NCBI GenBank assembly: GCA_964017235.1
Contig: OZ024933.1
Coordinates: 57,952,255-58,016,254, forward strand
Origin: Sabellastarte sp. h YS-2021
Lineage: Eukaryota; Annelida; Polychaeta; Sabellida; Sabellidae
Direction: 5' to 3'
DNA length: 64,000 nucleotides
This document shows, piece after piece, positions 23,421 to 64,000 of this stretch. The position numbers and the translations under genes were made by a program. Position 1 is the stretch's first letter. Each line of letters starts with the position of its first letter. Under the pieces are notes generated by a model. That model had not been told where the DNA came from. It did not search any database and was given only the letters and a program-made list of their open reading frames with translations.

Positions 23421-23590
23421 TGGTACCAGAAGTAAAATACTTCTAATTATAAAGATTGTGTTCAATTTAAAGAAATCAATAACAGACTAAATCACACAGT
23501 GAATTTAGTGACAGATATAATTTACACAGTATAATTAGGATATATTAAAACAAGTATAAAGGATACTTAATTCATCAACAACGGATAAAA

Positions 23591-34009: not shown

Positions 34010-34141
34010 CAGTGTGTTAAAAAAATCTGTGTATGAGTACATTGTGGTCTCATCTCCCATACAGAACACTCTTGTCTTTCTCACAACACAAATATTGATC
34101 TATTTTGATGTCAAAGACCAGTCAGACAGCACTGTCTAATG

Positions 34142-34440
34142 GCTGGGAGTTGTGGGGTGCTCCTGTAATCCAGTTACTTGGGAGCCTGAGTTGAAGGACA
34201 TCTTGAGGGTAGGAGCTCTGCTGGTTACCTTCCTATGTTGATCAGGTGTCTGCACTAAGCTGTGCATCAATATGGTGGCCCTGGTGGACACTTGGGTCAC
34301 CAGGTTGTATAATGAGGGACGTACAGGCTCAGGGTGGAAACACAGCAGGCAGAAGTCTCCCTGTACAGCAGTAGTGAGATTGCACTTGTGAATAGGAGAT
34401 ATCTGGTAGCCTACTCAATACAGACGGACTCAACTCTTTT
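34142..34440 (+). ncRNA. SRP RNA: 7SL RNA gene, copy 1 (array edge, diverged)
   Basis: RNA scaffold of the signal recognition particle. The Alu-domain 5' end GCTGGGAGTTGTGG and CTGTAATCCAGTTACTTGGG match human 7SL in order. The S domain has GGTGTCTGCACTAAGCTGTG, a helix 6 hairpin, GGTGGAAACACAGCAGG (helix 8) and AGTAGTGAGATTGCAC then TGTGAATAG. It ends in TTTT at 34437-34440; 299 nt is the normal animal length. Private changes against the other copies: C15 to G, GGAAGCC to GGGAGCC, helix 6 tetraloop GGAC (34286-34289) in place of GGAG, and CTCCC for CTCCG. It may be a degenerating edge copy. Confidence 0.93.
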
Positions 34441-34870
34441 ACCCTTTCTCAGTAATTTGTTTTTATTTGCAGAGATGAGGATATTTAATTCACATTCTTA
34501 TTGCTGTCCTATACAGTTCACACAAATGTCATTCCAATTAAATAGCCTACAAATGCATGAACATCATTAGTTTTATTTGTACTCGCTAAATACACGCAGA
34601 ATTCAGTACTTGCATGAAAAGAACATCTAAAATAGTACTGATACAGATTGACAAGGTTTGAAATTAATTTGGAATTTGTAACAATATATTTTGGTATGAA
34701 TAAAAATGTTTAAATTGAAATTTCTAACACATATGACTGCTTTCACTTTTATAACTGCATGAATTTATATAGCAGTGTGTTCAAAAGAAATATGTGCACG
34801 AGTACATTGTGGTCTCATCTCCCATACAGAACACTCTTGTCTTTCTCACAACAAAAATATTGATCTATTT

Positions 34871-34906
34871 TGATGTCAAAGACCAGTCAGACAGCACTGT
34901 CTAATG
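34871..34906 (+). promoter_or_regulatory. Upstream CRE-like element of the 7SL unit (copy 2 as example)
   Basis: TGATGTCA lies at -36 to -29 relative to the inferred +1 and recurs in nearly all units (TGATGCCA before copies 4 and 5). The human 7SL gene also depends on an upstream CRE-type site. There is no canonical TATA at -25. The gene itself begins GCTGGGAGTTGTGGCGTGC, whose TGGCGTGCTCC can serve as an internal A box. Promoter function is inferred. Confidence 0.4.
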
Positions 34907-35205
34907 GCTGGGAGTTGTGGCGTGCTCCTGTAATCCAGTTACTTGGAAGCCTGAGTTGAAGGACATCTTGAGGTTAGGAGCTCTGCTGGTTACCTTCCTA
35001 TGTTGATCAGGTGTCTGCACTAAGCTGTGCATCAATATGGTGGCCCTGGTGGAGACTTGGGTCACCAGGTTGTATAATGAGGGACGTACAGGCTCAGGGT
35101 GGAAACACAGCAGGCAGAAGTCTCCGTGTACAGCAGTAGTGAGATTGCACTTGTGAATAGGAGATATCTGGTAGCCTACTCAATACAGACGGACTCAACT
35201 CTTTT
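34907..35205 (+). ncRNA. SRP RNA: 7SL RNA gene, copy 2
   Basis: Good representative of the consensus. Helix 6 reads GGTGGCCCTGGT-GGAG-ACTTGGGTCACC, a 12-position stem with one U-U mismatch closed by the SRP19-type GGAG tetraloop (35051-35054). Helix 8 has GTG-GAAA-CAC. Private change: GAGGTTAGG for GAGGGTAGG. Confidence 0.97.
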
Positions 35206-35370
35206 ACCCTTTCTCAGTAATTTGTTTTTATTTGCAGAGATGCTGATGTTTCATTCACATTCTTATTGCTGTCATATACAGTTCACACAAATGTCATTCC
35301 AATTAAATAGCCTACAAATGCATGAACATCATTAATTTTATTTGTACTCGCTAAATACACGCAGAATTCA

Positions 35371-35458
35371 GTACTTGCATGAAAAGAATATCTAAAATAG
35401 TACTGATACAGATTGACAAGGTTTGAAATTAATTTGGAATTTGTAACAATATATTTTT
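35371..35458 (+). other. U6-snRNA-like relic in the 7SL spacer (copy 2 unit as example)
   Basis: In order, GTACTTGC, ACAT, CTAAAAT, six bases, GATACAGA, CAAGG, AAATT and ATATTTTT parallel U6 snRNA (GTGCTTGC, ACAT, CTAAAAT, six bases, GATACAGA, CAAGG, AAATT, ATATTTTT). The catalytic AGC and stem-loop part between ACAGA and CAAGG is missing, and the total is 88 nt against about 107. If real it is a dead U6 copy repeated in every unit. Chance similarity in AT-rich sequence is a serious alternative. Confidence 0.25.
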
Positions 35459-35669
35459 GTATGAATAAAAATGTTTAAATTGAAATTTCTAACACATGAC
35501 TGCTTTCACTTTTATAACTGCATGGATTTATATAGCAGTGTGTTCAAAAGAAATATGTGCACGAGTACATTGTGGTCTCATCTCCCATACAGAACACTCT
35601 TGTCTTTCTCACAACAAAAATATTGATCTATTTTGATGTCAAAGACCAGTCAGACAGCACTGTCTAATG

Positions 35670-35968
35670 GCTGGGAGTTGTGGCGTGCTCCTGTAATCCA
35701 GTTACTTGGAAGCCTGAGTTGAAGGACATCTTGAGGGTAGGAGCTCTGTTGGTTACCTTCCTATGTTGATCAGGTGTCTGCACTAAGCTGTGCATCAATA
35801 TGGTGGCCCTGGTGGAGACTTGGGTCACCAGGTTGTATAATGAGGGAGGTACAGGCTCAGGGTGGAAACACAGCAGGCAGAAGTCTCCGTGTACAGCAGT
35901 AGTGAGATTGCACTTGTGAATAGGAGATATCTGGTAGCCTACTCAATACAGACGGACTCAACTCTTTT
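35670..35968 (+). ncRNA. SRP RNA: 7SL RNA gene, copy 3
   Basis: Differs from consensus by CTCTGTTGG and by GGGAGGTAC at the GGGACGTAC site. The unit is 763 bp long because AT is missing in the spacer. Confidence 0.97.
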
Positions 35969-36432
35969 ACCCTTTCTCAGTAATTTGTTTTTATTTGCAG
36001 AGATGCTGATGTTTCATTCACATTCTTATTGCTGTCATATACAGTTCACACAAATGTCATTCCAATTAAATAGCCTACAAATGCATGAACATCATTAATT
36101 TTATTTGTACTCGCTAAATACACGCAGAATTCAGTACTTGCATGAAAAGAATATCTAAAATAGTACTGATACAGATTGACAAGGTTTGAAATTAATTTGG
36201 AATTTGTAACAATATATTTTTGTATGAATAAAAATGTTTAAATTGAAATTTCTAACACATGACTGCTTTCACTTTTATAACTGCATGGATTTATATAGCA
36301 GTGTGTTCAAAAGAAATATGTGCACGAGTACATCGTGGTCTCATCTCCCATACAGAACACTCTTGTCTTTCTCACAACAAAAATATTGATCTATTTTGAT
36401 GCCAAAGACCAGTCAGACAGCACTGTCTAATG

Positions 36433-36731
36433 GCTGGGAGTTGTGGCGTGCTCCTGTAATCCAGTTACTTGGAAGCCTGAGTTGAAGGACATCTTGAGGG
36501 TAGGAGCTCTGCTGGTTACCTTCCTATGTTGATCAGGTGTCTGCACTAAGCTGTGCATCAATATGGTGGCCCTGGTGGAGACTTGGGTCACCAGGTTGTA
36601 TAATGAGGGAGGTACAGGCTCAGGGTGGAAACACAGCAGGCAGAAGTCTCCGTGTACAGCAGTAGTGAGATTGCACTTGTGAATAGGAGATATCTGGTAG
36701 CCTACTCAATACAGACGGACTCAACTCTTTT
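36433..36731 (+). ncRNA. SRP RNA: 7SL RNA gene, copy 4
   Basis: GGGAGGTAC variant; the upstream CRE-like site is changed to TGATGCCA. Confidence 0.97.
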
Positions 36732-37195
36732 ACCCTTTCTCAGTAATTTGTTTTTATTTGCAGAGATGCTGATGTTTCATTCACATTCTTATTGCTGTCA
36801 TATACAGTTCACACAAATGTCATTCCAATTAAATAGCCTACAAATGCATGAACATCATTAATTTTATTTGTACTCGCTAAATACACGCAGAATTCAGTAC
36901 TTGCATGAAAAGAATATCTAAAATAGTACTGATACAGATTGACAAGGTTTGAAATTAATTTGGAATTTGTAACAATATATTTTTGTATGAATAAAAATGT
37001 TTAAATTGAAATTTCTAACACATGACTGCTTTCACTTTTATAACTGCATGGATTTATATAGCAGTGTGTTCAAAAGAAATATGTGCACGAGTACATCGTG
37101 GTCTCATCTCCCATACAGAACACTCTTGTCTTTCTCACAACAAAAATATTGATCTATTTTGATGCCAAAGACCAGTCAGACAGCACTGTCTAATG

Positions 37196-37494
37196 GCTGG
37201 GAGTTGTGGCGTGCTCCTGTAATCCAGTTACTTGGAAGCCTGAGTTGAAGGACATCTTGAGGGTAGGAGCTCTGCTGGTTACCTTCCTATGTTGATCAGG
37301 TGTCTGCACTAAGCTGTGCATCAATATGGTGGCCCTGGTGGAGACTTGGGTCACCAGGTTGTATAATGAGGGAGGTACAGGCTCAGGGTGGAAACACAGC
37401 AGGCAGAAGTCTCCGTGTACAGCAGTAGTGAGATTGCACTTGTGAATAGGAGATATCTGGTAGCCTACTCAATACAGACGGACTCAACTCTTTT
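37196..37494 (+). ncRNA. SRP RNA: 7SL RNA gene, copy 5
   Basis: Same gene variant and upstream TGATGCCA as copy 4. One T is missing just after the gene (TTTTTATTGCAG), which breaks the accidental open frame but not the RNA. Confidence 0.97.
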
Positions 37495-37959
37495 ACCCTT
37501 TCTCAGTAATTTGTTTTTATTGCAGAGATGCTGATGTTTCATTCACATTCTTATTGCTGTCATATACAGTTCACACAAATGTCATTCCAATTAAATAGCC
37601 TACAAATGCATGAACATCATTAGTTTTATTTGTACTCGCTAAATACACGCAGAATTCAGTACTTGCATGAAAAGAACATCTAAAATAGTACTGATACAGA
37701 TTGACAAGGTTTGAAATTAATTTGGAATTTGTAACAATATATTTTTGTATGAATAAAAATGTTTAAATTGAAATTTCTAACACATATGACTGCTTTCACT
37801 TTTATAACTGCATGAATTTATATAGCAGTGTGTTCAAAAGAAATATGTGCACGAGTACATTGTGGTCTCATCTCCCATACAGAACACTCTTGTCTTTCTC
37901 ACAACAAAAATATTGATCTATTTTGATGTCAAAGACCAGTCAGACAGCACTGTCTAATG

Positions 37960-38258
37960 GCTGGGAGTTGTGGCGTGCTCCTGTAATCCAGTTACTTGGA
38001 AGCCTGAGTTGAAGGACATCTTGAGGGTAGGAGCTCTGCTGGTTACCTTCCTATGTTGATCAGGTGTCTGCACTAAGCTGTGCATCAATATGGTGGCCCT
38101 GGTGGAGACTTGGGTCACCAGGTTGTATAATGAGGGACATACAGGCTCAGGGTGGAAACACAGCAGGCAGAAGTCTCCGTGTACAGCAGTAGTGAGATTG
38201 CACTTGTGAATAGGAGATATCTGGTAGCCTACTCAATACAGACGGACTCAACTCTTTT
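37960..38258 (+). ncRNA. SRP RNA: 7SL RNA gene, copy 6
   Basis: Consensus except GGGACATAC at the GGGACGTAC site. Confidence 0.97.
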
Positions 38259-38724
38259 ACCCTTTCTCAGTAATTTGTTTTTATTTGCAGAGATGAGGAT
38301 ATTTAATTCACATTCTTATTGCTGTCATATACAGTTCACACAAATGTCATTCCAATTAAATAGCCTACAAATGCATGAACATCATTAGTTTTATTTGTAC
38401 TCGCTAAATACACGCAGAATTCAGTACTTGCATGAAAAGAACATCTAAAATAGTACTGATACAGATTGACAAGGTTTGAAATTAATTTGGAATTTGTAAC
38501 AATATATTTTTGTATGAATAAAAATGTTTAAATTGAAATTTCTAACACATATGACTGCTTTCACTTTTATAACTGCATGAATTTATATAGCAGTGTGTTC
38601 AAAAGAAATATGTGCACGAGTACATTGTGGTCTCATCTCCCATACAGAACACTCTTGTCTTTCTCACAACAAAAATATTGATCAATTTTGATGTCAAACA
38701 CCAGTCAGACAGCACTGTCTAATG

Positions 38725-39023
38725 GCTGGGAGTTGTGGCGTGCTCCTGTAATCTAGTTACTTGGAAGCCTGAGTTGAAGGACATCTTGAGGGTAGGAGCT
38801 CTGCTGGTTACCTTCCTATGTTGATCAGGTGTCTGCACTAAGCTGTGCATCAATATGGTGGCCCTGGTGGAGACTTGGGTCACCAGGTTGTATAATGAGG
38901 GACGTACAGGCTCAGGGTGGAAACACAGCAGGCAGAAGTCTCCGTGTACAGCAGTACTGAGATTGCACTTGTGAATAGGAGATATCTGGTAGCCTACTCA
39001 ATACAGACGGACTCAACTCTTTT
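38725..39023 (+). ncRNA. SRP RNA: 7SL RNA gene, copy 7
   Basis: TAATCTAGTTAC and CAGTACTGAG variants, shared only with copy 9. CAGTACTG alters the conserved CAGTAGTG strand opposite the SRP54-binding loop. Confidence 0.95.
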
Positions 39024-39489
39024 ACCCTTTCTCAGTAATTTGTTTTTATTTGCAGAGATGCTGATGTTTAATTCACATTCTTATTGCTGTCATATACAGT
39101 TCACACAAATGTCATTCCAATTAAATAGCCTACAAATGCATGAACATCATTAGTTTTATTTGTACTCGCTAAATACACGCAGAATTCAGTACTTGCATGA
39201 AAAGAACATCTAAAATAGTACTGATACAGATTGACAAGGTTTGAAATTAATTTGGAATTTGTAACAATATATTTTTGTATGAATAAAAATGTTTAAATTG
39301 AAATTTCTAACACATATGACTGCTTTCACTTTTATAACTGCATGAATTTATATAGCAGTGTGTTCAAAAGAAATATGTGCACGAGTACATTGTGGTCTCA
39401 TCCCCCATACAGAACACTCTTGTCTTTCTCACCACAAAAATATTGATCTATTTTGATGTCAAAGACCAGTCAGACAGCACTGTCTAATG

Positions 39490-39788
39490 GCTGGGAGTTG
39501 TGGCGTGCTCCTGTAATCCAGTTACTTGGAAGCCTGAGTTGAAGGACATCTTGAGGGTAGGAGCTCTGCTGGTTACCTTCTTATGTTGATCAGGTGTCTG
39601 CACTAAGCTGTGCATCAATATGGTGGCCCTGGTGGAGACTTGGGTCACCAGGTTGTATAATGAGGGATGTACAGGCTCAGGGTGGAAACACAGCAGGTAG
39701 AAGTCTCCGTGTACAGCAGTAGTGAGATTGCACTTGTGAATAGGAGATATCTGGTAGCCTACTCAATACAGACGGACTCAACTCTTTT
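39490..39788 (+). ncRNA. SRP RNA: 7SL RNA gene, copy 8
   Basis: CTTCTTATG, GGGATGTAC and CAGGTAGAAG variants, shared only as a set with copy 10. Confidence 0.96.
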
Positions 39789-40254
39789 ACCCTTTCTCAG
39801 TAATTTGTTTTTATTTGCAGAGATGAGGATATTTAATTCACATTCTTATTGCTGTCATATACAGTTCACACAAATGTCATTCCAATTAAATAGCCTACAA
39901 ATGCATGAACATCATTAGTTTTATTTGTACTCGCTAAATACACGCAGAATTCAGTACTTGCATGAAAAGAACATCTAAAATAGTACTGATACAGATTGAC
40001 AAGGTTTGAAATTAATTTGGAATTTGTAACAATATATTTTTGTATGAATAAAAATGTTTAAATTGAAATTTCTAACACATATGACTGCTTTCACTTTTAT
40101 AACTGCATGAATTTATATAGCAGTGTGTTCAAAAGAAATATGTGCACGAGTACATTGTGGTCTCATCTCCCATACAGAACACTCTTGTCTTTCTCACAAC
40201 AAAAATATTGATCAATTTTGATGTCAAACACCAGTCAGACAGCACTGTCTAATG

Positions 40255-40553
40255 GCTGGGAGTTGTGGCGTGCTCCTGTAATCTAGTTACTTGGAAGCCT
40301 GAGTTGAAGGACATCTTGAGGGTAGGAGCTCTGCTGGTTACCTTCCTATGTTGATCAGGTGTCTGCACTAAGCTGTGCATCAATATGGTGGCCCTGGTGG
40401 AGACTTGGGTCACCAGGTTGTATAATGAGGGACGTACAGGCTCAGGGTGGAAACACAGCAGGCAGAAGTCTCCGTGTACAGCAGTACTGAGATTGCACTT
40501 GTGAATAGGAGATATCTGGTAGCCTACTCAATACAGACGGACTCAACTCTTTT
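40255..40553 (+). ncRNA. SRP RNA: 7SL RNA gene, copy 9
   Basis: Carries the same private variants as copy 7; part of a duplicated 1.53-kb pair. Confidence 0.95.
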
Positions 40554-41019
40554 ACCCTTTCTCAGTAATTTGTTTTTATTTGCAGAGATGCTGATGTTTA
40601 ATTCACATTCTTATTGCTGTCATATACAGTTCACACAAATGTCATTCCAATTAAATAGCCTACAAATGCATGAACATCATTAGTTTTATTTGTACTCGCT
40701 AAATACACGCAGAATTCAGTACTTGCATGAAAAGAACATCTAAAATAGTACTGATACAGATTGACAAGGTTTGAAATTAATTTGGAATTTGTAACAATAT
40801 ATTTTTGTATGAATAAAAATGTTTAAATTGAAATTTCTAACACATATGACTGCTTTCACTTTTATAACTGCATGAATTTATATAGCAGTGTGTTCAAAAG
40901 AAATATGTGCACGAGTACATTGTGGTCTCATCCCCCATACAGAACACTCTTGTCTTTCTCACCACAAAAATATTGATCTATTTTGATGTCAAAGACCAGT
41001 CAGACAGCACTGTCTAATG

Positions 41020-44078: not shown

Positions 44079-44377
44079 GCTGGGAGTTGTGGCATGCTCC
44101 TGTAATCCAGTTACTTGGAAGCCTGTGTTGAAGGACATCTTGAGGGTAGGAGCTCTGTTGGTTACCTTCCTATGTTGATCAGGTGTCTGCACTAAGCTGT
44201 GCATCAATATGGTGGCCCTGGTGGAGACTTGGGTCACCAGGTTGTATAATGAGGGACGTACAGGCTCAGGGTGGAAACACAGCAGGCAGAAGTCTCCGTG
44301 TACAGCAGTAGTGAGATTGCACTTGTGAATAGGAGATATCTGGTAGCCTACTCAATACAGACGGACTCAACTCTTTT
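44079..44377 (+). ncRNA. SRP RNA: 7SL RNA gene, copy 14
   Basis: GGCATGCTCC (private), CCTGTGTTG and CTCTGTTGG. Confidence 0.96.
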
Positions 44378-44843
44378 ACCCTTTCTCAGTAATTTGTTTT
44401 TATTTGCAGAGATGCTGATGTTTCATTCACATTCTTATTGCTGTCATATACAGTTCACACAAATGTCATTCCAATTAAATAGCCTACAAATGCATGAACA
44501 TCATTAGTTTTATTTGTACTCGCTAAATACACACAGAATTCAGTACTTGCATGAAAAGAACATCTAAAATAGTACTGATACAGATTGACAAGGTTTGAAA
44601 TTAATTTGGAATTTGTAACAATATATTTTTGTATGAATAAAAATGTTTAAATTGAAATTTCTAACACATATGACTGCTTTCACTTTTATAACTGCATGAA
44701 TTTATATAGCAGTGTGTTCAAAAGAAATATGTGCACGAGTACATTGTGGTCTCATCTCCCATACAGAACACTCTTGTCTTTCTCACAACAAAAATATTGA
44801 TCTATTTTGATGTCAAAGACCAGTCAGACAGCACTGTCTAATG

Positions 44844-45142
44844 GCTGGGAGTTGTGGCGTGCTCCTGTAATCCAGTTACTTGGAAGCCTGAGTTGAAGGA
44901 CATCTTGAGGGTAGGAGCTCTGCTGGTTACCTTCCTATGTTGATCAGGTGTCTGCACTAAGCTGTGCATCAATATGGTGGCCCTGGTGGAGACTTGGGTC
45001 ACCAGGTTGTATAATGAGGGACGTACAGGCTCAGGGTGGAAACACAGCAGGCAGAAGTCTCCGTGTACAGCAGTAGTGAGATTGCACTTGTGAATAGGAG
45101 ATATCTGGTAGCCTACTCAATACAGACGGACTCAACTCTTTT
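44844..45142 (+). ncRNA. SRP RNA: 7SL RNA gene, copy 15
   Basis: Matches the array consensus throughout. Confidence 0.97.
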
Positions 45143-45608
45143 ACCCTTTCTCAGTAATTTGTTTTTATTTGCAGAGATGCTGATGTTTCATTCACATTCT
45201 TATTGCTGTCATATACAGTTCACACAAATGTCATTCCAATTAAATAGCCTACAAATGCATGAACATCATTAGTTTTATTTGTACTCGCTAAATACACACA
45301 GAATTCAGTACTTGCATGAAAAGAACATCTAAAATAGTACTGATACAGATTGACAAGGTTTGAAATTAATTTGGAATTTGTAACAATATATTTTTGTATG
45401 AATAAAAATGTTTAAATTGAAATTTCTAACACATATGACTGCTTTCACTTTTATAACTGCATGAATTTATATAGCAGTGTGTTCAAAAGAAATATGTGCA
45501 CGAGTACATTGTGGTCTCATCTCCCATACAGAACACTCTTGTCTTTCTCACAACAAAAATATTGATCTATTTTGATGTCAAAGACCAGTCAGACAGCACT
45601 GTCTAATG

Positions 45609-45907
45609 GCTGGGAGTTGTGGCGTGCTCCTGTAATCCAGTTACTTGGAAGCCTGAGTTGAAGGACATCTTGAGGGTAGGAGCTCTGCTGGTTACCTTCC
45701 TATGTTGATCAGGTGTCTGCACTAAGCTGTGCATCAATATGGTGGCCCTGGTGGAGACTTGGGTCACCAGGTTGTATAATGAGGGACGTACAGGCTCAGG
45801 GTGGAAACACAGCAGGCAGAAGTCTCCGTGTACAGCAGTAGTGAGATTGCACTTGTGAATAGGAGATATCTGGTAGCCTACTCAATACAGACGGACTCAA
45901 CTCTTTT
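45609..45907 (+). ncRNA. SRP RNA: 7SL RNA gene, copy 16
   Basis: Matches the array consensus throughout; spacer also like copy 15. Confidence 0.97.
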
Positions 45908-46373
45908 ACCCTTTCTCAGTAATTTGTTTTTATTTGCAGAGATGCTGATGTTTCATTCACATTCTTATTGCTGTCATATACAGTTCACACAAATGTCATT
46001 CCAATTAAATAGCCTACAAATGCATGAACATCATTAGTTTTATTTGTACTCGCTAAATACACACAGAATTCAGTACTTGCATGAAAAGAACATCTAAAAT
46101 AGTACTGATACAGATTGACAAGGTTTGAAATTAATTTGGAATTTGTAACAATATATTTTTGTATGAATAAAAATGTTTAAATTGAAATTTCTAACACATA
46201 TGACTGCTTTCACTTTTATAACTGCATGAATTTATATAGCAGTGTGTTCAAAAGAAATATGTGCACGAGTACATTGTGGTCTCATCTCCCATACAGAACA
46301 CTCTTGTCTTTCTCACAACAAAAATATTGATCTATTTTGATGTCAAAGACCAGTCAGACAGCACTGTCTAATG

Positions 46374-46672
46374 GCTGGGAGTTGTGGCGTGCTCCTGTAA
46401 TCCAGTTACTTGGAAGCCTGAGTTGAAGGACATCTTGAGGGTAGGAGCTCTGCTGGTTACCTTCCTATGTTGATCAGGTGTCTGCACTAAGCTGTGCATC
46501 AATATGGTGGCCCTGGTGGAGACTTGGGTCACCAGGTTGTATAATGAGGGACGTACAGGCTCAGGGTGGAAACACAGCAGGCAGAAGTCTCCGTGTACAG
46601 CAGTAGTGAGATTGCACTTGTGAATAGGAGATATCTGGTAGCCTACTCAATACAGACGGACTCAACTCCTTT
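46374..46672 (+). ncRNA. SRP RNA: 7SL RNA gene, copy 17 (weakened terminator)
   Basis: Consensus in the body, but the 3' T run is changed from CTTTT to CCTTT, leaving three T residues. The next strong T run is about 25 bp downstream (GTTTTTATTT), so a read-through transcript is likely. Confidence 0.93.
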
Positions 46673-47138
46673 ACCCTTTCTCAGTAATTTGTTTTTATTT
46701 GCAGAGATGCTGATGTTTCATTCACATTCTTATTGCTGTCATATACAGTTCACACAAATGTCATTCCAATTAAATAGCCTACAAATGCATGAACATCATT
46801 AGTTTTATTTGTACTCGCTAAATACATGCAGAATTCAGTACTTGCATGAAAAGAACATCTAAAATAGTACTGATACAGATTGACAAGGTTTGAAATTAAT
46901 TTGGAATTTGTAACAATATATTTTTGTATGAATAAAAATGTTTAAATTGAAATTTCTAACACATATGACTGCTTTCACTTTTATAACTGCATGAATTTAT
47001 ATAGCAGTGTGTTCAAAAGAAATATGTGCACGAGTACATTGTGGTCTCATCTCCCATACAGAACACTCTTGTCTTTCTCACAACAAAAATATTGATCTAT
47101 TTTGATGTCAAAGACCAGTCAGACAGCACTGTGTAATG

Positions 47139-47437
47139 GCTGGGAGTTGTGGCGTGCTCCTGTAATCCAGTTACTTGGAAGCCTGAGTTGAAGGACATCT
47201 TGAGGGTAAGAGTTCTGCTGGTTACCTTCCTATGTTGATCAGGTGTCTGCACTAAGCTGTGCATCAATATGGTGGCCCTGGTGGAGACTTTGGTCACCAG
47301 GTTGTATAATGAGGGATGTACAGGCTCAGGGTGGAAACACAGCAGGCAGAAGTCTCCGTGTACAGCAGTAGTGAGATTGCACTTGTGAATAGGAGATATC
47401 TGGTAGCCTACTCAATACAGACGGACTCAACTCTTTT
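47139..47437 (+). ncRNA. SRP RNA: 7SL RNA gene, copy 18
   Basis: GGGTAAGAGTTCTG, GACTTTGGTC (helix 6 3' strand) and GGGATGTAC, a set repeated exactly in copy 23. Confidence 0.95.
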
Positions 47438-47903
47438 ACCCTTTCTCAGTAATTTGTTTTTATTTGCAGAGATGCTGATGTTTAATTCACATTCTTATTG
47501 CTGTCATATACAGTTCACACAAATGTCATTCCAATTAAATAGCCTACAAATGCATGAACATCATTAGTTTTATTTGTACTCGCTAAATACATGCAGAATT
47601 CAGTACTTGCATGAAAAGAACATCTAAAATAGTACTGATACAGATTGACAAGGTTTGAAATTAATTTGGAATTTGTAACAATATATTTTTGTATGAATAA
47701 AAATGTTTAAATTGAAATTTCTAACACATATGACTGCTTTCACTTTTATAACTGCATGAATTTATATAGCAGTGTGTTCAAAAGAAATATGTGCACAAGT
47801 ACATTGTGGTCTCATCTCCCATACAGAACACTCTTGTCTTTCTCACAACAAAAATATTGATCAATTTTGATGTCAAAGACCAGTCAGACAGCACTGTCTA
47901 ATG

Positions 47904-48202
47904 GCTGGGAGTTGTGGCGTGCTCCTGTAATCCAGTTACTTGGAAGCCAGTGTTGAAGGACATCTTGAGGGTAGGAGCTCTGTTGGTTACCTTCCTATGT
48001 TGATCAGGTGTCTGCACTAAGCTGTGCATCAATATGGTGGCCCTGGTGGAGACTTGGGTCACCAGGTTGTATAATGAGGGACGTACAGGCTCAGGGTGGA
48101 AACACAGCAGGCAGAAGTCTCCGTGTACAGCAGTAGTGAGATTGCACTTGTGAATAGGAGATATCTGGTAGCCTACTCAATACAGACGGACTCAACTCTT
48201 TT
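47904..48202 (+). ncRNA. SRP RNA: 7SL RNA gene, copy 19
   Basis: GAAGCCAGTGTTGAAGG and CTCTGTTGG, repeated in copy 24. Confidence 0.96.
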
Positions 48203-48668
48203 ACCCTTTCTCAGTAATTTGTTTTTATTTGCAGAGATGCTGATGTTTCATTCACATTCTTATTGCTGTCATATACAGTTCACACAAATGTCATTCCAAT
48301 TAAATAGCCTACAAATGCATGAACATCATTAGTTTTATTTGTACTCGCTAAATACACACAGAATTCAGTACTTGCATGAAAAGAACATCTAAAATAGTAC
48401 TGATACAGATTGACAAGGTTTGAAATTAATTTGGAATTTGTAACAATATATTTTTGTATGAATAAAAATGTTTAAATTGAAATTTCTAACACATATGACT
48501 GCTTTCACTTTTATAACTGCATGAATTTATATAGCAGTGTGTTCAAAAGAAATATGTGCACGAGTACATTGTGGTCTCATCTCCCATACAGAACACTCTT
48601 GTCTTTCTCACAACAAAAATATTGATCTATTTTGATGTCAAAGACCAGTCAGACAGCACTGTCTAATG

Positions 48669-48967
48669 GCTGGGAGTTGTGGCGTGCTCCTGTAATCCAG
48701 TTACTTGGAAGCCTGAGTTGAAGGACATCTTGAGGGTAGGAGCTCTGCTGGTTACCTTCCTATGTTGATCAGGTGTCTGCACTAAGCTGTGCATCAATAT
48801 GGTGGCCCTGGTGGAGACTTGGGTCACCAGGTTGTATAATGAGGGACGTACAGGCTCAGGGTGGAAACACAGCAGGCAGAAGTCTCCGTGTACAGCAGTA
48901 GTGAGATTGCACTTGTGAATAGGAGATATCTGGTAGCCTACTCAATACAGACGGACTCAACTCTTTT
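48669..48967 (+). ncRNA. SRP RNA: 7SL RNA gene, copy 20
   Basis: Matches the array consensus. Confidence 0.97.
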
Positions 48968-49433
48968 ACCCTTTCTCAGTAATTTGTTTTTATTTGCAGA
49001 GATGCTGATGTTTCATTCACATTCTTATTGCTGTCATATACAGTTCACACAAATGTCATTCCAATTAAATAGCCTACAAATGCATGAACATCATTAGTTT
49101 TATTTGTACTCGCTAAATACACACAGAATTCAGTACTTGCATGAAAAGAACATCTAAAATAGTACTGATACAGATTGACAAGGTTTGAAATTAATTTGGA
49201 ATTTGTAACAATATATTTTTGTATGAATAAAAATGTTTAAATTGAAATTTCTAACACATATGACTGCTTTCACTTTTATAACTGCATGAATTTATATAGC
49301 AGTGTGTTCAAAAGAAATATGTGCACGAGTACATTGTGGTCTCATCTCCCATACAGAACACTCTTGTCTTTCTCACAACAAAAATATTGATCTATTTTGA
49401 TGTCAAAGACCAGTCAGACAGCACTGTCTAATG

Positions 49434-49732
49434 GCTGGGAGTTGTGGCGTGCTCCTGTAATCCAGTTACTTGGAAGCCTGAGTTGAAGGACATCTTGAGG
49501 GTAGGAGCTCTGCTGGTTACCTTCCTATGTTGATCAGGTGTCTGCACTAAGCTGTGCATCAATATGGTGGCCCTGGTGGAGACTTGGGTCACCAGGTTGT
49601 ATAATGAGGGACGTACAGGCTCAGGGTGGAAACACAGCAGGCAGAAGTCTCCGTGTACAGCAGTAGTGAGATTGCACTTGTGAATAGGAGATATCTGGTA
49701 GCCTACTCAATACAGACGGACTCAACTCTTTT
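49434..49732 (+). ncRNA. SRP RNA: 7SL RNA gene, copy 21
   Basis: Matches the array consensus; spacer like copy 20. Confidence 0.97.
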
Positions 49733-50198
49733 ACCCTTTCTCAGTAATTTGTTTTTATTTGCAGAGATGCTGATGTTTCATTCACATTCTTATTGCTGTC
49801 ATATACAGTTCACACAAATGTCATTCCAATTAAATAGCCTACAAATGCATGAACATCATTAGTTTTATTTGTACTCGCTAAATACACACAGAATTCAGTA
49901 CTTGCATGAAAAGAACATCTAAAATAGTACTGATACAGATTGACAAGGTTTGAAATTAATTTGGAATTTGTAACAATATATTTTTGTATGAATAAAAATG
50001 TTTAAATTGAAATTTCTAACACATATGACTGCTTTCACTTTTATAACTGCATGAATTTATATAGCAGTGTGTTCAAAAGAAATATGTGCACGAGTACATT
50101 GTGGTCTCATCTCCCATACAGAACACTCTTGTCTTTCTCACAACAAAAATATTGATCTATTTTGATGTCAAAGACCAGTCAGACAGCACTGTCTAATG

Positions 50199-50497
50199 GC
50201 TGGGAGTTGTGGCGTGCTCCTGTAATCCAGTTACTTGGAAGCCTGAGTTGAAGGACATCTTGAGGGTAGGAGCTCTGCTGGTTACCTTCCTATGTTGATC
50301 AGGTGTCTGCACTAAGCTGTGCATCAATATGGTGGCCCTGGTGGAGACTTGGGTCACCAGGTTGTATAATGAGGGACGTACAGGCTCAGGGTGGAAACAC
50401 AGCAGGCAGAAGTCTCCGTGTACAGCAGTAGTGAGATTGCACTTGTGAATAGGAGATATCTGGTAGCCTACTCAATACAGACGGACTCAACTCTTTT
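50199..50497 (+). ncRNA. SRP RNA: 7SL RNA gene, copy 22
   Basis: Matches the array consensus; the spacer downstream has ACATGCAG in place of ACACACAG. Confidence 0.97.
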
Positions 50498-50963
50498 ACC
50501 CTTTCTCAGTAATTTGTTTTTATTTGCAGAGATGCTGATGTTTCATTCACATTCTTATTGCTGTCATATACAGTTCACACAAATGTCATTCCAATTAAAT
50601 AGCCTACAAATGCATGAACATCATTAGTTTTATTTGTACTCGCTAAATACATGCAGAATTCAGTACTTGCATGAAAAGAACATCTAAAATAGTACTGATA
50701 CAGATTGACAAGGTTTGAAATTAATTTGGAATTTGTAACAATATATTTTTGTATGAATAAAAATGTTTAAATTGAAATTTCTAACACATATGACTGCTTT
50801 CACTTTTATAACTGCATGAATTTATATAGCAGTGTGTTCAAAAGAAATATGTGCACGAGTACATTGTGGTCTCATCTCCCATACAGAACACTCTTGTCTT
50901 TCTCACAACAAAAATATTGATCTATTTTGATGTCAAAGACCAGTCAGACAGCACTGTGTAATG

Positions 50964-51262
50964 GCTGGGAGTTGTGGCGTGCTCCTGTAATCCAGTTACT
51001 TGGAAGCCTGAGTTGAAGGACATCTTGAGGGTAAGAGTTCTGCTGGTTACCTTCCTATGTTGATCAGGTGTCTGCACTAAGCTGTGCATCAATATGGTGG
51101 CCCTGGTGGAGACTTTGGTCACCAGGTTGTATAATGAGGGATGTACAGGCTCAGGGTGGAAACACAGCAGGCAGAAGTCTCCGTGTACAGCAGTAGTGAG
51201 ATTGCACTTGTGAATAGGAGATATCTGGTAGCCTACTCAATACAGACGGACTCAACTCTTTT
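50964..51262 (+). ncRNA. SRP RNA: 7SL RNA gene, copy 23
   Basis: Same private set as copy 18, five units (3,825 bp) earlier. Confidence 0.95.
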
Positions 51263-51728
51263 ACCCTTTCTCAGTAATTTGTTTTTATTTGCAGAGATGC
51301 TGATGTTTAATTCACATTCTTATTGCTGTCATATACAGTTCACACAAATGTCATTCCAATTAAATAGCCTACAAATGCATGAACATCATTAGTTTTATTT
51401 GTACTCGCTAAATACATGCAGAATTCAGTACTTGCATGAAAAGAACATCTAAAATAGTACTGATACAGATTGACAAGGTTTGAAATTAATTTGGAATTTG
51501 TAACAATATATTTTTGTATGAATAAAAATGTTTAAATTGAAATTTCTAACACATATGACTGCTTTCACTTTTATAACTGCATGAATTTATATAGCAGTGT
51601 GTTCAAAAGAAATATGTGCACAAGTACATTGTGGTCTCATCTCCCATACAGAACACTCTTGTCTTTCTCACAACAAAAATATTGATCAATTTTGATGTCA
51701 AAGACCAGTCAGACAGCACTGTCTAATG

Positions 51729-52027
51729 GCTGGGAGTTGTGGCGTGCTCCTGTAATCCAGTTACTTGGAAGCCAGTGTTGAAGGACATCTTGAGGGTAGG
51801 AGCTCTGTTGGTTACCTTCCTATGTTGATCAGGTGTCTGCACTAAGCTGTGCATCAATATGGTGGCCCTGGTGGAGACTTGGGTCACCAGGTTGTATAAT
51901 GAGGGACGTACAGGCTCAGGGTGGAAACACAGCAGGCAGAAGTCTCCGTGTACAGCAGTAGTGAGATTGCACTTGTGAATAGGAGATATCTGGTAGCCTA
52001 CTCAATACAGACGGACTCAACTCTTTT
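51729..52027 (+). ncRNA. SRP RNA: 7SL RNA gene, copy 24
   Basis: Same private set as copy 19. Confidence 0.96.
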
Positions 52028-52493
52028 ACCCTTTCTCAGTAATTTGTTTTTATTTGCAGAGATGCTGATGTTTCATTCACATTCTTATTGCTGTCATATA
52101 CAGTTCACACAAATGTCATTCCAATTAAATAGCCTACAAATGCATGAACATCATTAGTTTTATTTGTACTCGCTAAATACACGCAGAATTCAGTACTTGC
52201 ATGAAAAGAACATCTAAAATAGTACTGATACAGATTGACAAGGTTTGAAATTAATTTGGAATTTGTAACAATATATTTTTGTATGAATAAAAATGTTTAA
52301 ATTGAAATTTCTAACACATATGACTGCTTTCACTTTTATAACTGCATGAATTTATATAGCAGTGTGTTCAAAAGAAATATGTGCACGAGTACATTGTGGT
52401 CTCATCTCCCATACAGAACACTCTTGTCTTTCTCACAACAAAAATATTGATCTATTTTGATGTCAAAGACCAGTCAGACAGCACTGTCTAATG

Positions 52494-52846
52494 GCTGGGA
52501 GTTGTGGCGTGCTCCTGTAATCCAGTTACTTGGAAGCCTGAGTTGAAGGTCAAAGTTGGGGTTTTACGTCCCGTTCAACAGCCAGGGAAGCCTGAGTTGA
52601 AGGACATCTTGAGGGTAGGAGCTCTGCTGGTTACCTTCCTATGTTGATCAGGTGTCTGCACTAAGCTGTGCATCAATATGGTGGCCCTGGTGGAGACTTG
52701 GGTCACCAGGTTGTATAATGAGGGAGGTACAGGCTCAGGGTGGAAACACAGCAGGCAGAAGTCTCCGTGTACAGCAGTAGTGAGATTGCACTTGTGAATA
52801 GGAGATATCTGGTAGCCTACTCAATACAGACGGACTCAACTCTTTT
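52494..52846 (+). pseudogene. 7SL RNA gene, copy 25, broken by a SINE fragment
   Basis: The only copy with an indel inside the gene: 54 extra bases. They comprise a 36-37 bp fragment (52550-52586) and a second copy of 17-18 target bases, in the region following the Alu 5' domain. The insertion would disrupt helix 5, so the RNA is probably non-functional. GGGAGGTAC variant also present. Confidence 0.93.
52550..52586 (-). mobile_element. SINE 3' fragment inside 7SL copy 25
   Basis: TCAAAGTTGGGGTTTTACGT and the following CCCGTTCAACAGCCAGG are the exact inverse complement of the 3' end of the SINE at 13779-13932. It is flanked by GAAGCCTGAGTTGAAGG on both sides (52533-52549 and 52587-52603), a target duplication of 17-18 bp. 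A strongly 5'-truncated insertion. Confidence 0.9.
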
Positions 52847-56671: not shown

Positions 56672-57137
56672 ACCCTTTCTCAGTAATTTGTTTTTATTTG
56701 CAGAGATGCTGATGTTTAATTCACATTCTTATTGCTGTCATATACAGTTCACACAAATGTCATTCCAATTAAATAGCCTACAAATGCATGAACATCATTA
56801 GTTTTATTTGTACTCGCTAAATACATGCAGAATTCAGTACTTGCATGAAAAGAACATCTAAAATAGTACTGATACAGATTGACAAGGTTTGAAATTAATT
56901 TGGAATTTGTAACAATATATTTTTGTATGAATAAAAATGTTTAAATTGAAATTTCTAACACATATGACTGCTTTCACTTTTATAACTGCATGAATTTATA
57001 TAGCAGTGTGTTCAAAAGAAATATGTGCACAAGTACATTGTGGTCTCATCTCCCATACAGAACACTCTTGTCTTTCTCACAACAAAAATATTGATCAATT
57101 TTGATGTCAAAGACCAGTCAGACAGCACTGTCTAATG

Positions 57138-57436
57138 GCTGGGAGTTGTGGCGTGCTCCTGTAATCCAGTTACTTGGAAGCCTGTGTTGAAGGACATCTT
57201 GAGGGTAGGAGCTCTGTTGGTTACCTTCCTATGTTGATCAGGTGTCTGCACTAAGCTGTGCATCAATATGGTGGCCCTGGTGGAGACTTGGGTCACCAGG
57301 TTGTATAATGAGGGACGTACAGGCTCAGGGTGGAAACACAGCAGGCAGAAGTCTCCGTGTACAGCAGTAGTGAGATTGCACTTGTGAATAGGAGATATCT
57401 GGTAGCCTACTCAATACAGACGGACTCAACTCTTTT
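57138..57436 (+). ncRNA. SRP RNA: 7SL RNA gene, copy 31
   Basis: CCTGTGTTG and CTCTGTTGG variants. Confidence 0.97.
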
Positions 57437-57902
57437 ACCCTTTCTCAGTAATTTGTTTTTATTTGCAGAGATGCTGATGTTTCATTCACATTCTTATTGC
57501 TGTCATATACAGTTCACACAAATGTCATTCCAATTAAATAGCCTACAAATGCATGAACATCATTAGTTTTATTTGTACTCGCTAAATACACGCAGAATTC
57601 AGTACTTGCATGAAAAGAACATCTAAAATAGTACTGATACAGATTGACAAGGTTTGAAATTAATTTGGAATTTGTAACAATATATTTTTGTATGAATAAA
57701 AATGTTTAAATTGAAATTTCTAACACATATGACTGCTTTCACTTTTATAACTGCATGAATTTATATAGCAGTGTGTTCAAAAGAAATATGTGCACGAGTA
57801 CATTGTGGTCTCATCTCCCATACATAACACTCTTGTCTTTCTCACAACAAAAATATTGATCTATTTTGATGTCAAAGACCAGTCAGACAGCACTGTCTAA
57901 TG

Positions 57903-58201
57903 GCTGGGAGTTGTGGCGTGCTCCTGTAATCCAGTTACTTGGAAGCCTGAGTTGAAGGACATCTTGAGGGTAGGAGCTCTGCTGGTTACCTTCCTATGTT
58001 GATCAGGTGTCTGCACTAAGCTGTGCATCAATATGGTGGCCCTGGTGGAGACTTGGGTCACCAGGTTGTATAATGAGGGACGTACAGGCTCAGGGTGGAA
58101 ACACAGCAGGCAGAAGTCTCCGTGTACAGCAGTAGTGAGATTGCACTTGTGAATAGGAGATATCTGGTAGCCTACTCAATACAGACGGACTCAACTCTTT
58201 T
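57903..58201 (+). ncRNA. SRP RNA: 7SL RNA gene, copy 32
   Basis: Matches consensus in the gene; upstream flank has CATACATAACAC for CATACAGAACAC. Confidence 0.97.
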
Positions 58202-58667
58202 ACCCTTTCTCAGTAATTTGTTTTTATTTGCAGAGATGCTGATGTTTCATTCACATTCTTATTGCTGTCATATACAGTTCACACAAATGTCATTCCAATT
58301 AAATAGCCCACAAATGCATGAACATCATTAGTTTTATTTGTACTCGCTAAATACATGCAGAATTCAGTACTTGCATGAAAAGAACATCTAAAATAGTACT
58401 GATGCAGATTGACAAGGTTTGAAATTAATTTGGAATTTGTAACAATATATTTTTGTATGAATAAAAATGTTTAAATTGAAATTTCTAACACATATGACTG
58501 CTTTCACTTTTATAACTGCATGAATTTATATAGCAGTGTGTTCAAAAGAAATATGTGCACAAGTACATTGTGGTCTCATCTCCCATACAGAACACTCTTG
58601 TCTTTCTCACAACAAAAATATTGATCAATTTTGATGTCAAAGACCAGTCAGACAGCACTGTCTAATG

Positions 58668-58966
58668 GCTGGGAGTTGTGGCGTGCTCCTGTAATCCAGT
58701 TACTTGGAAGCCTGTGTTGAAGGACATCTTGAGGGTAGGAGCTCTGTTGGTTACCTTCCTATGTTGATCAGGTGTCTGCACTAAGCTGTGCATCAATATG
58801 GTGGCCCTGGTGGAGACTTGGGTCACCAGGTTGTATAATGAGGGACGTACAGGCTCAGGGTGGAAACACAGCAGGCAGAAGTCTCCGTGTACAGCAGTAG
58901 TGAGATTGCACTTGTGAATAGGAGATATCTGGTAGCCTACTCAATACAGACGGACTCAACTCTTTT
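58668..58966 (+). ncRNA. SRP RNA: 7SL RNA gene, copy 33
   Basis: CCTGTGTTG and CTCTGTTGG, as copy 31. Confidence 0.97.
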
Positions 58967-59432
58967 ACCCTTTCTCAGTAATTTGTTTTTATTTGCAGAG
59001 ATGCTGATGTTTCATTCACATTCTTATTGCTGTCATATACAGTTCACACAAATGTCATTCCAATTAAATAGCCTACAAATGCATGAACATCATTAGTTTT
59101 ATTTGTACTCGCTAAATACACGCAGAATTCAGTACTTGCATGAAAAGAACATCTAAAATAGTACTGATACAGATTGACAAGGTTTGAAATTAATTTGGAA
59201 TTTGTAACAATATATTTTTGTATGAATAAAAATGTTTAAATTGAAATTTCTAACACATATGACTGCTTTCACTTTTATAACTGCATGAATTTATATAGCA
59301 GTGTGTTCAAAAGAAATATGTGCACAAGTACATTGTGGTCTCATCTCCCATACAGAACACTCTTGTCTTTCTCACAACAAAAATATTGATCAATTTTGAT
59401 GTCAAAGACCAGTCAGACAGCACTGTCTAATG

Positions 59433-59731
59433 GCTGGGAGTTGTGGCGTGCTCCTGTAATCCAGTTACTTGGAAGCCTGTGTTGAAGGACATCTTGAGGG
59501 TAGGAGCTCTGTTGGTTACCTTCCTATGTTGATCAGGTGTCTGCACTAAGCTGTGCATCAATATGGTGGTCCTGGTGGAGACTTGGGTCACCAGGTTGTA
59601 TAATGAGGGACGTACAGGCTCAGGGTGGAAACACAGCAGGCAGAAGTCTCCGTGTACAGCAGTAGTGAGATTGCACTTGTGAATAGGAGATATCTGGTAG
59701 CCTACTCAATACAGACGGACTCAACTCTTTT
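59433..59731 (+). ncRNA. SRP RNA: 7SL RNA gene, copy 34
   Basis: As copy 33, plus GGTGGTCCTGG in the 5' strand of helix 6 (C to U, which would leave a G-U pair). Confidence 0.97.
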
Positions 59732-60197
59732 ACCCTTTCTCAGTAATTTGTTTTTATTTGCAGAGATGCTGATGTTTCATTCACATTCTTATTGCTGTCA
59801 TATACAGTTCACACAAATGTCATTCCAATTAAATAGCCTACAAATGCATGAACATCATTAGTTTTATTTGTACTCGCTAAATACACGCAGAATTCAGTAC
59901 TTGCATGAAAAGAACATCTAAAATAGTACTGATACAGATTGACAAGGTTTGAAATTAATTTGGAATTTGTAACAATATATTTTTGTATGAATAAAAATGT
60001 TTAAATTGAAATTTCTAACACATATGACTGATTTCACTTTTATAACTGCATGAATTTATATAGCAGTGTGTTCAAAAGAAATATGTGCACGAGTACATTG
60101 TGGTCTCATCTCCCATACAGAACACTCTTGTCTTTCTCACAACAAAAATATTGATCTATTTTGATGTCAAAGACCAGTCAGACAGCACTGTCTAATG

Positions 60198-60496
60198 GCT
60201 GGGAGTTGTGGCGTGCTCCTGTAATCCAGTTACTTGGAAGCCTGAGTTGAAGGACATCTTGAGGGTAGGAGCTCTGCTGGTTACCTTCCTATGTTGATCA
60301 GGTGTCTGCACTAAGCTGTGCATCAATATGGTGGCCCTGGTGGAGACTTGGGTCACCAGGTTGTATAATGAGGGAGGTACAGGCTCAGGGTGGAAACACA
60401 GCAGGCAGAAGTCTCCGTGTACAGCAGTAGTTAGATTGCACTTGTGAATAGGAGATATCTGGTAGCCTACTCAATACAGACAGACTCAACTCTTTT
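60198..60496 (+). ncRNA. SRP RNA: 7SL RNA gene, copy 35
   Basis: GGGAGGTAC, AGTAGTTAGATT (helix 8 flank) and ACAGACAGACTC. Confidence 0.96.
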
Positions 60497-60962
60497 ACCC
60501 TTTCTCAGTAATTTGTTTTTATTTGCAGAGATGCTGATGTTTAATTCACATTCTTATTGCTGTCATATACAGTTCACACAAATGTCATTCCAATTAAATA
60601 GCCCACAAATGCATGAACATCATTAGTTTTATTTGTACTCGCTAAATACATGCAGAATTCAGTACTTGCATGAAAAGAACATCTAAAATAGTACTGATGC
60701 AGATTGACAAGGTTTGAAATTAATTTGGAATTTGTAACAATATATTTTTGTATGAATAAAAATGTTTAAATTGAAATTTCTAACACATATGACTGCTTTC
60801 ACTTTTATAACTGCATGAATTTATATAGCAGTGTGTTCAAAAGAAATATGTGCACAAGTACATTGTGGTCTCATCTCCCATACAGAACACTCTTGTCTTT
60901 CTCACAACAAAAATATTGATCAATTTTGATGTCAAAGACCAGTCAGACAGCACTGTCTAATG

Positions 60963-61261
60963 GCTGGGAGTTGTGGCGTGCTCCTGTAATCCAGTTACTT
61001 GGAAGCCTGTGTTGAAGGACATCTTGAGGGTAGGAGCTCTGTTGGTTACCTTCCTATGTTGATCAGGTGTCTGCACTAAGCTGTGCATCAATATGGTGGC
61101 CCTGGTGGAGACTTGGGTCACCAGGTTGTATAATGAGGGAGGTACAGGCTCAGGGTGGAAACACAGCAGGCAGAAGTCTCCGTGTACAGCAGTAGTGAGA
61201 TTGCACTTGTGAATAGGAGATATCTGGTAGCCTACTCAATACAGACGGACTCAACTCTTTT
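60963..61261 (+). ncRNA. SRP RNA: 7SL RNA gene, copy 36
   Basis: CCTGTGTTG, CTCTGTTGG and GGGAGGTAC. Confidence 0.97.
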
Positions 61262-61727
61262 ACCCTTTCTCAGTAATTTGTTTTTATTTGCAGAGATGCT
61301 GATGTTTCATTCACATTCTTATTGCTGTCATATACAGTTCACACAAATGTCATTCCAATTAAATAGCCTACAAATGCATGAACATCATTAGTTTTATTTG
61401 TACTCGCTAAATACACGCAGAATTCAGTACTTGCATGAAAAGAACATCTAAAATAGTACTGATACAGATTGACAAGGTTTGAAATTAATTTGGAATTTGT
61501 AACAATATATTTTTGTATGAATAAAAATGTTTAAATTGAAATTTCTAACACATATGACTGCTTTCACTTTTATAACTGCATGAATTTGTATAGCAGTGTG
61601 TTCAAAAGAAATATGTGCACGAGTACATTGTGGTCTCATCTCCCATACAGAACACTCTTGTCTTTCTCACAACAAAAATATTGATCTATTTTGATGTCAA
61701 AGACCAGTCAGACAGCACTGTCTAATG

Positions 61728-62026
61728 GCTGGGAGTTGTGGCGTGCTCCTGTAATCCAGTTACTTGGAAGCCTGAGTTGAAGGACATCTTGAGGGTAGGA
61801 GCTCTGCTGGTTACCTTCCTATGTTGATCAGGTGTCTGCACTAAGCTGTGCATCAATATGGTGGCCCTGGTGGAGACTTGGGTCACCAGGTTGTATAATG
61901 AGGGACGTACAGGCTCAGGGTGGAAACACAGCAGGCAGAAGTCTCCGTGTACAGCAGTAGTGAGATTGCACTTGTGAATAGGAGATATCTGGTAGCCTAC
62001 TCAATACAGACGGACTCAACTCTTTT
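61728..62026 (+). ncRNA. SRP RNA: 7SL RNA gene, copy 37
   Basis: Matches the array consensus. Confidence 0.97.
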
Positions 62027-62492
62027 ACCCTTTCTCAGTAATTTGTTTTTATTTGCAGAGATGCTGATGTTTCATTCACATTCTTATTGCTGTCATATAC
62101 AGTTCACACAAATGTCATTCCAATTAAATAGCCTACAAATGCATGAACATCATTAGTTTTATTTGTACTCGCTAAATACATGCAGAATTCAGTACTTGCA
62201 TGAAAAGAACATCTAAAATAGTACTGATACAGATTGACAAGGTTTGAAATTAATTTGGAATTTGTAACAATATATTTTTGTATGAATAAAAATGTTTAAA
62301 TTGAAATTTCTAACACATATGACTGCTTTCACTTTTATAACTGCATGAATTTATATAGCAGTGTGTTCAAAAGAAATATGTGCACGAGTACATTGTGGTC
62401 TCATCTCCCATACAGAACACTCTTGTCTTTCTCACAACAAAAATATTGATCAATTTTGATGTCAAAGACTAGTCAGACAGCACTGTCTAATG

Positions 62493-62791
62493 GCTGGGAG
62501 TTGTGGCGTGCTCCTGTAATCCAGTTACTTGGAAGCCTGAGTTGAAGGACATCTTGAGGGTAGGAGCTCTGCTGGTTACCTTCCTATGTTGATCAGGTGT
62601 CTGCACTAAGCTGTGCATCAATATGGTGGCCCTGGTGGAGACTTGGGTCACCAGGTTGTATAATGAGGGAGGTACAGGCTCAGGGTGGAAACACAGCAGG
62701 CAGAAGTCTCCGTGTACAGCAGTAGTTAGATTGCACTTGTGAATAGGAGATATCTGGTAGCCTACTCAATACAGACGGACTCAACTCTTTT
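62493..62791 (+). ncRNA. SRP RNA: 7SL RNA gene, copy 38
   Basis: GGGAGGTAC and AGTAGTTAGATT, the latter shared only with copy 35. Confidence 0.96.
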
Positions 62792-63257
62792 ACCCTTTCT
62801 CAGTAATTTGTTTTTATTTGCAGAGATGCTGATGTTTCATTCACATTCTTATTGCTGTCATATACAGTTCACACAAATGTCATTCCAATTAAATAGCCTA
62901 CAAATGCATGAACATCATTAGTTTTATTTGTACTCGCTAAATACACGCAGAATTCAGTACTTGCATGAAAAGAACATCTAAAATAGTACTGATACAGATT
63001 GACAAGGTTTGAAATTAATTTGGAATTTGTAACAATATATTTTTGTATGAATAAAAATGTTTAAATTGAAATTTCTAACACATATGACTGCTTTCACTTT
63101 TATAACTGCATGAATTTATATAGCAGTGTGTTCAAAAGAAATATGTGCACGAGTACATTGTGGTCTCATCTCCCATACAGAACACTCTTGTCTTTCTCAC
63201 AACAAAAATATTGATCTATTTTGATGTCAAAGACCAGTCAGACAGCACTGTCTAATG

Positions 63258-63556
63258 GCTGGGAGTTGTGGCGTGCTCCTGTAATCCAGTTACTTGGAAG
63301 CCTGAGTTGAAGGACATCTTGAGGGTAGGAGCTCTGCTGGTTACCTTCCTATGTTGATCAGGTGTCTGCACTAAGCTGTGCATCAATATGGTGGCCCTGG
63401 TGGAGACTTGGGTCACCAGGTTGTATAATGAGGGAGGTACAGGCTCAGGGTGGAAACACAGCAGGCAGAAGTCTCCGTGTACAGCAGTAGTGAGATTGCA
63501 CTTGTGAATAGGAGATATCTGGTAGCCTACTCAATACAGACGGACTCAACTCTTTT
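63258..63556 (+). ncRNA. SRP RNA: 7SL RNA gene, copy 39 (last in window)
   Basis: GGGAGGTAC variant. Its spacer runs to the window edge, 22 bp short of where a 40th gene would start. Confidence 0.97.
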
Positions 63557-64000
63557 ACCCTTTCTCAGTAATTTGTTTTTATTTGCAGAGATGCTGATGT
63601 TTCATTCACATTCTTATTGCTGTCATATACAGTTCACACAAATGTCATTCCAATTAAATAGCCTACAAATGCATGAACATCATTAGTTTTATTTGTACTC
63701 GCTAAATACACGCAGAATTCAGTACTTGCATGAAAAGAAAATCTAAAATAGTACTGATACAGATTGACAAGGTTTGAAATTAATTTGGAATTTGTAACAA
63801 TATATTTTTGTATGAATAAAAATGTTTAAATTGAAATTTCTAACACATATGACTGCTTTCACTTTTATAACTGCATGAATTTATATAGCAGTGTGTTCAA
63901 AAGAAATATGTGCACGAGTACATTGTGGTCTCATCTCCCATACAGAACACTCTTGTCTTTCTCACAACAAAAATATTGATCTATTTTGATGTCAAAGACC

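Follow-up and report, generated by a model that had tools for sequence, protein, structure and literature searches.

A stretch of 64,000 bp from the sabellid polychaete Sabellastarte sp. h YS-2021 (contig OZ024933.1, positions 57,952,255 to 58,016,254, forward strand; hereafter the window, numbered from its first base) ends in a long run of 7SL genes. Is such a run a functional SRP RNA locus whose copies are kept alike by exchange between units, or a satellite that has grown out of a 7SL gene and is largely silent?

The array and its units

In this work, the metazoan SRP RNA model of Rfam (RF00017) gave 39 matches in the window, all on the forward strand between 34142 and 63555. Each of the 39 spans model positions 1–299, so they represent full-length 7SL genes. 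The scores ranged from 239.3 to 260.7 bits (best E 8.9e-71) against a gathering score of 70 bits, and a chance origin of these 39 matches is out of the question. The first-pass annotation had proposed 39 tandem 7SL genes and asked for a check with this very model, which bears the proposal out. No other Rfam family reached its own cut-off in the window and no tRNA gene was predicted there by ARAGORN. Positions 1–34141 contain no SRP match even at E up to 1, so older 7SL copies in the left flank were not found. The genes, all on the + strand, start at 34142, 34907, 35670, 36433, 37196, 37960, 38725 and 39490 (units 1–8), at 40255, 41020, 41785, 42550, 43315, 44079, 44844 and 45609 (units 9–16), at 46374, 47139, 47904, 48669, 49434, 50199, 50964 and 51729 (units 17–24), at 52494, 53313, 54078, 54843, 55608, 56373, 57138 and 57903 (units 25–32), and at 58668, 59433, 60198, 60963, 61728, 62493 and 63258 (units 33–39). 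The gene length is 298 nt and not the 299 nt first proposed, with the exception of the copy at 52494 (352 nt). The proposed period of about 765 bp holds, since 32 of the 38 gene-to-gene steps measure 765 bp, five measure 763–764 bp and one measures 819 bp. The left edge was also shifted slightly, from 34010 to 33999, where homology begins according to blastn: the first gene is preceded by 143 bp of 5' flank (33999–34141, + strand), which shares 93% identity with the corresponding flank of a central unit. The array was said to be open on the right, and it is: the window edge cuts it, and the spacer behind the gene of unit 39 (63258–63555, + strand, an RF00017 match and the last gene in the window) runs to 64000. 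By the RF00017 matches, the spacing and the left boundary, the array (33999–64000, + strand) is composed of at least 39 head-to-tail 7SL genes.

The GC content of a unit is 50% in the 298-bp gene and 31% in the 467-bp spacer. The gene of unit 15 (44844–45141, + strand, RF00017 match) can serve as the typical gene, because its sequence is the commonest and occurs in 8 of 39 copies. It is followed by a typical spacer of 467 bp (45142–45608, + strand), which carries TGATGTCA ahead of the next gene. This element stands upstream of 37 of the 39 genes, at −36 to −29 in the typical unit, and we take it to resemble a CRE/ATF site. In human 7SL, an ATF site is located upstream of the gene. A box A-like stretch at gene positions 5–14 and a box B-like stretch at positions 73–83 of unit 15 were placed by eye against the boxes quoted in a passage of an earlier report (PMC7245038). 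Unconstrained folding of unit 15 gave an elongated, 7SL-like structure, the energy of which is unexceptional (z −1.64; 14 of 200 shuffles were equally good).

The motifs had been ascribed to every gene. This is right for the helix-8 core GTGGAAACACAGCAGG (GGAAAC/AGCAG), unchanged in 39/39 genes, and nearly so for the helix-6 GGAG motif GGTGGAGAC and the 3' end CTCTTTTACC with its terminal T-run, which are each present in 38/39. In the gene of unit 1 (34142–34439, + strand), the most diverged unit, the tetraloop reads GGAC and not GGAG. The gene of unit 17 (46374–46671, + strand) has a terminal run of three T, because gene position 296 has changed from T to C, whereas the other units have four. 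The gene of unit 25 (52494–52845, + strand, recognised by RF00017 and blastn) is interrupted by 36 bp on the opposite strand (52550–52585), which correspond to a 5'-truncated SINE 3' end and lie between two copies of an 18-bp segment of the gene (52532–52549 and 52586–52603). A tRNA-like SINE at about 13785–13927 has a 3' end identical to the insert in reverse, and on sequence grounds this is the source family. We read the insert as a truncated SINE retroposed into one gene, and it is absent from all other 7SL genes in the window.

Exchange between units and variation within them

The results on identity, distance, linkage and site counts are based on an alignment of 38 units that excludes unit 39, while the RF00017 matches, the gene comparison, the motif counts and the pair-breaking count per gene include it. 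Unit 25 was excluded from the gene comparison and from the pair-breaking count per gene, and columns private to it were excluded from the unit distances. The mean identity between units was 98.98%, and 32 of the 38 units have distinct sequences. Units 14–19 match units 19–24 in order with 0–2 differences each (44079–52493, + strand), so that a block recurs five units further along the array; this ordered run of 6 units is the longest, and shuffling the order 2000 times gave none above 4. Moreover, the differences between units rise with their distance along the array (Mantel r 0.23, p 0.0002), also when units 1–5 are removed (r 0.18, p 0.007). Linkage was evaluated on 33 sites, from which gapped, three-allele and singleton sites were excluded. 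All four gametes were found in 59 of 528 pairs of informative sites and in none of the 85 pairs less than 60 bp apart, and the association between sites falls with distance (p 0.017). A share of these pairs could be due to recurrent mutation at CpG sites. The block, the distance effect and the four-gamete pairs would all fit a combination of exchange within units and unequal crossing-over with a shift of one to several units. The window holds what is expected of a tandem array, namely head-to-tail units with homologous spacers and exchange between them. The earlier suggestion of a locus in concerted evolution is supported by the sequence pattern, that is, by the block duplication, the recombined site pairs and the likeness that falls with distance.

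The gene is not more conserved than the spacer: 25 of 298 gene positions and 30 of 467 spacer positions are variable (p 0.32). We regard such conservation as common in arrays under selection but not as part of their definition. The gene/spacer ratio of variable sites was 1.31 (95% interval 0.74–2.30) and outside CpG 1.12 (0.59–2.09). Because of the width of these intervals, a reduction of gene variability by up to about 40% is still compatible with the data. Diversity was 1.04% in the gene and 1.01% in the spacer. The proportion of variable sites was 8.4% in the gene, 9.6% in the 5' flank and 4.7% in the distal spacer, so that any difference from the distal spacer is in the direction of more variation, for the gene (p 0.07) as for the 5' flank (p 0.048, both uncorrected). 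Standard pairs are broken by 12 of the 27 changes in the gene, against 11.9 under random placement, and at least one pair-breaking change is carried by 24 of the 38 genes without the insert. Neither the variable-site nor the pair-breaking tests within the array gave a sign of selection on single copies. Across the 38 aligned units, small indels were absent from the genes and of three kinds in the spacers, a contrast built on too few events to decide. The hot spots of variation are CpG positions, 9 of 14 of which are variable, compared with 46 of the 751 others (p 4e-8). Since CpG positions are over-represented among the variable sites, germline CpG methylation of the array (33999–64000) is suggested. 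The CpG ratio of the unit, 0.25, is not unusual locally, as 31% of 665 left-flank windows are equally low. The TpG/CpA ratio of 1.47 is high and is reached by 2.3% of left-flank windows.

Functional locus or satellite

These are 7SL genes in an array with traces of exchange between the units, and we hypothesize that the array is a functional, redundant SRP RNA locus, transcribed by Pol III and homogenised by exchange, a reading that we hold to be fairly probable. Every 765-bp unit has its own 5' flank, a full 7SL gene with box A- and box B-like stretches, and a T-run, so each could serve as a separate RNA polymerase III transcription unit; jointly the units would supply SRP RNA, which gives the array a presumed dosage role. 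Misaligned exchange would keep the copies alike, through unequal crossing-over with a shift of one to several units and through exchange within units. Damaged copies such as units 1 and 25 would be tolerated because the remaining copies suffice, and for the same reason single copies would be almost free to vary. The 39 full-length matches, the motifs and TGATGTCA kept in nearly all copies, the 143-bp 5' flank of the first unit, the high identity between mostly distinct units with its traces of exchange, the genes free of small indels and a published precedent for the arrangement speak for such a redundant locus; the negative tests for selection on single copies, the CpG decay and the unexceptional fold energy speak against it.

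On the other hand, a functional 7SL gene and its flanks may have been amplified by unequal crossing-over into a satellite, the copies of which are mostly or all silent or neutral, with the SRP RNA of the cell provided by a few units or by another source. The equal variability of gene and spacer, the random rate of pair-breaking changes, the hot CpG positions and the SINE fragment tolerated in one gene would all follow from this, and yet we consider it unlikely, although a serious competitor. Nearly all copies have kept the motifs, the aligned genes are free of small indels, the low CpG ratio is nothing unusual in this region, and redundancy alone could mask selection on single copies. The stronger picture of an essential-RNA gene turned satellite, in which the array decays at CpG and drifts neutrally and single copies are no longer selected, yet the consensus keeps every tested SRP RNA motif while the RNA comes from a few units or another locus, seems to us improbable. 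A functional dosage locus would be the likelier reading.

The number of units is taken from the assembly only, so the assembler might have multiplied a few real units. This is very improbable, because 32 of the 38 units differ in sequence, blocks of units recur in order, the unit at the edge is diverged and the DNA to the left of the array is unique; an assembler error would hardly produce the block, distance and four-gamete pattern. A 7SL-derived SINE or another retroposed family turned tandem deserves next to no credence. Such SINEs do exist in Euarchontoglires and hagfish, but the known families described in the relevant passages of PMC7245038 are without the middle of 7SL, and here the full model is matched in 39/39 genes. 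The spacers are homologous between units, and no A-rich tail was seen by eye behind the genes in 33000–38000. The SINE reading is already contradicted by the full-length genes and the homologous spacers.

The published precedent for this arrangement comes from Hydractinia, whose genome paper reports ncRNA genes in regularly spaced arrays of tens or hundreds (PMC11067881). In the sections of that paper concerned with these arrays, SRP RNA is named among the tandem arrays of the older draft assembly of the hydroid Hydractinia echinata, and it is not listed among those of the two newer Hydractinia assemblies. The annelid array resembles the Hydractinia ncRNA arrays as described there in its near-identical genes, even spacing, tens of copies or more and homologous spacers; unit details of the SRP RNA array are not given in those sections. 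It also resembles 5S rDNA arrays, in which a Pol III gene and a spacer stand head to tail and evolve in concert, with the difference that the gene here is 7SL. According to the title of one study (PMC3215682), 5S genes can reportedly show strong purifying selection within arrays, whereas none is detectable in this 7SL array. In the dinoflagellate Karenia brevis, the SRP RNA gene is clustered with SL RNA, tRNA and U6 genes in the account given by the relevant part of PMC7022241. That is a mixed cluster in a protist, unlike the present array, which contains 7SL alone and of the animal type. Human 7SL genes, which encode the same RNA as the array, are described in a passage of PMC10498592 as having an internal and an upstream promoter (type 2-hybrid). 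For Schistosoma mansoni, eight probable SRP RNA candidates are reported and 12 are given in a table, with no array mentioned in these parts of the paper (PMC2770079). Besides Hydractinia, no animal SRP RNA tandem array was found in the literature searched, a coverage that leaves most subscription journals outside. The rarity claimed in the first-pass annotation is therefore weakened by the H. echinata array named in PMC11067881, though such arrays are still rarely described in animals. Because the Hydractinia precedent is in print and no other animal array was found, the SRP RNA tandem array is a kind already known in animals, but rarely described. Searches elsewhere have little bearing on animals: a helix-8 pattern gave 10 loci in viral contigs, none of which matched any Rfam family at its gathering score, a stricter pattern gave 0 in viral contigs, and another gave 0 in genome contigs, the two collections being of viruses and prokaryotes. 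The array adds a large, sequence-resolved case of SRP RNA to an apparently very short animal list. Since its units carry many readable variants, the number of expressed copies in a redundant ncRNA array, and the strength of selection on each copy, could be addressed directly.

Surroundings of the array

The segment at 30930–30982 and 50 bp of the array spacer are 79% alike (45.5 bits); when the left flank was resampled at random (first order, 60 times), no score exceeded 34.6 bits. Part of the array spacer may derive from an old dispersed repeat. A likeness of 31 bp to the 5' flank at 33449–33479 (30.1 bits) was rejected as a relic, being below the random maximum of 34.6 bits. Three weak U4 snRNA-like matches at 4107–4576 (23.7–28.5 bits against a gathering score of 46) sit inside a 169-bp tandem repeat and are probably due to chance. 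Two retroelements were recognised in the left flank. The first, at 23549–27433, has stop-split frames of the Ty3/gypsy type with reverse transcriptase, RNase H and integrase domains. The second, at 6337–7920, is a LINE-like element with a reverse transcriptase frame (RVT_1), and close matches to it are abundant. The best matches of the two retroelements' proteins are 96% and 95% identical (among the best 120 of 283 and the best 120 of 7882); for one of the proteins, the matches listed with a species group are more distant and mixed, from fish, frog, annelid, oyster, wasp and ant. Minisatellite blocks of related units of about 139–146 bp were found at 1036–1587, 10993–11421, 13256–14199, 20738–22018 and 32234–32897, the last on the opposite strand to the other four. 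The tRNA-like SINE at 13785–13927 sits within minisatellite; by eye, it has box-like stretches and seems to be flanked by a 13-bp direct repeat.
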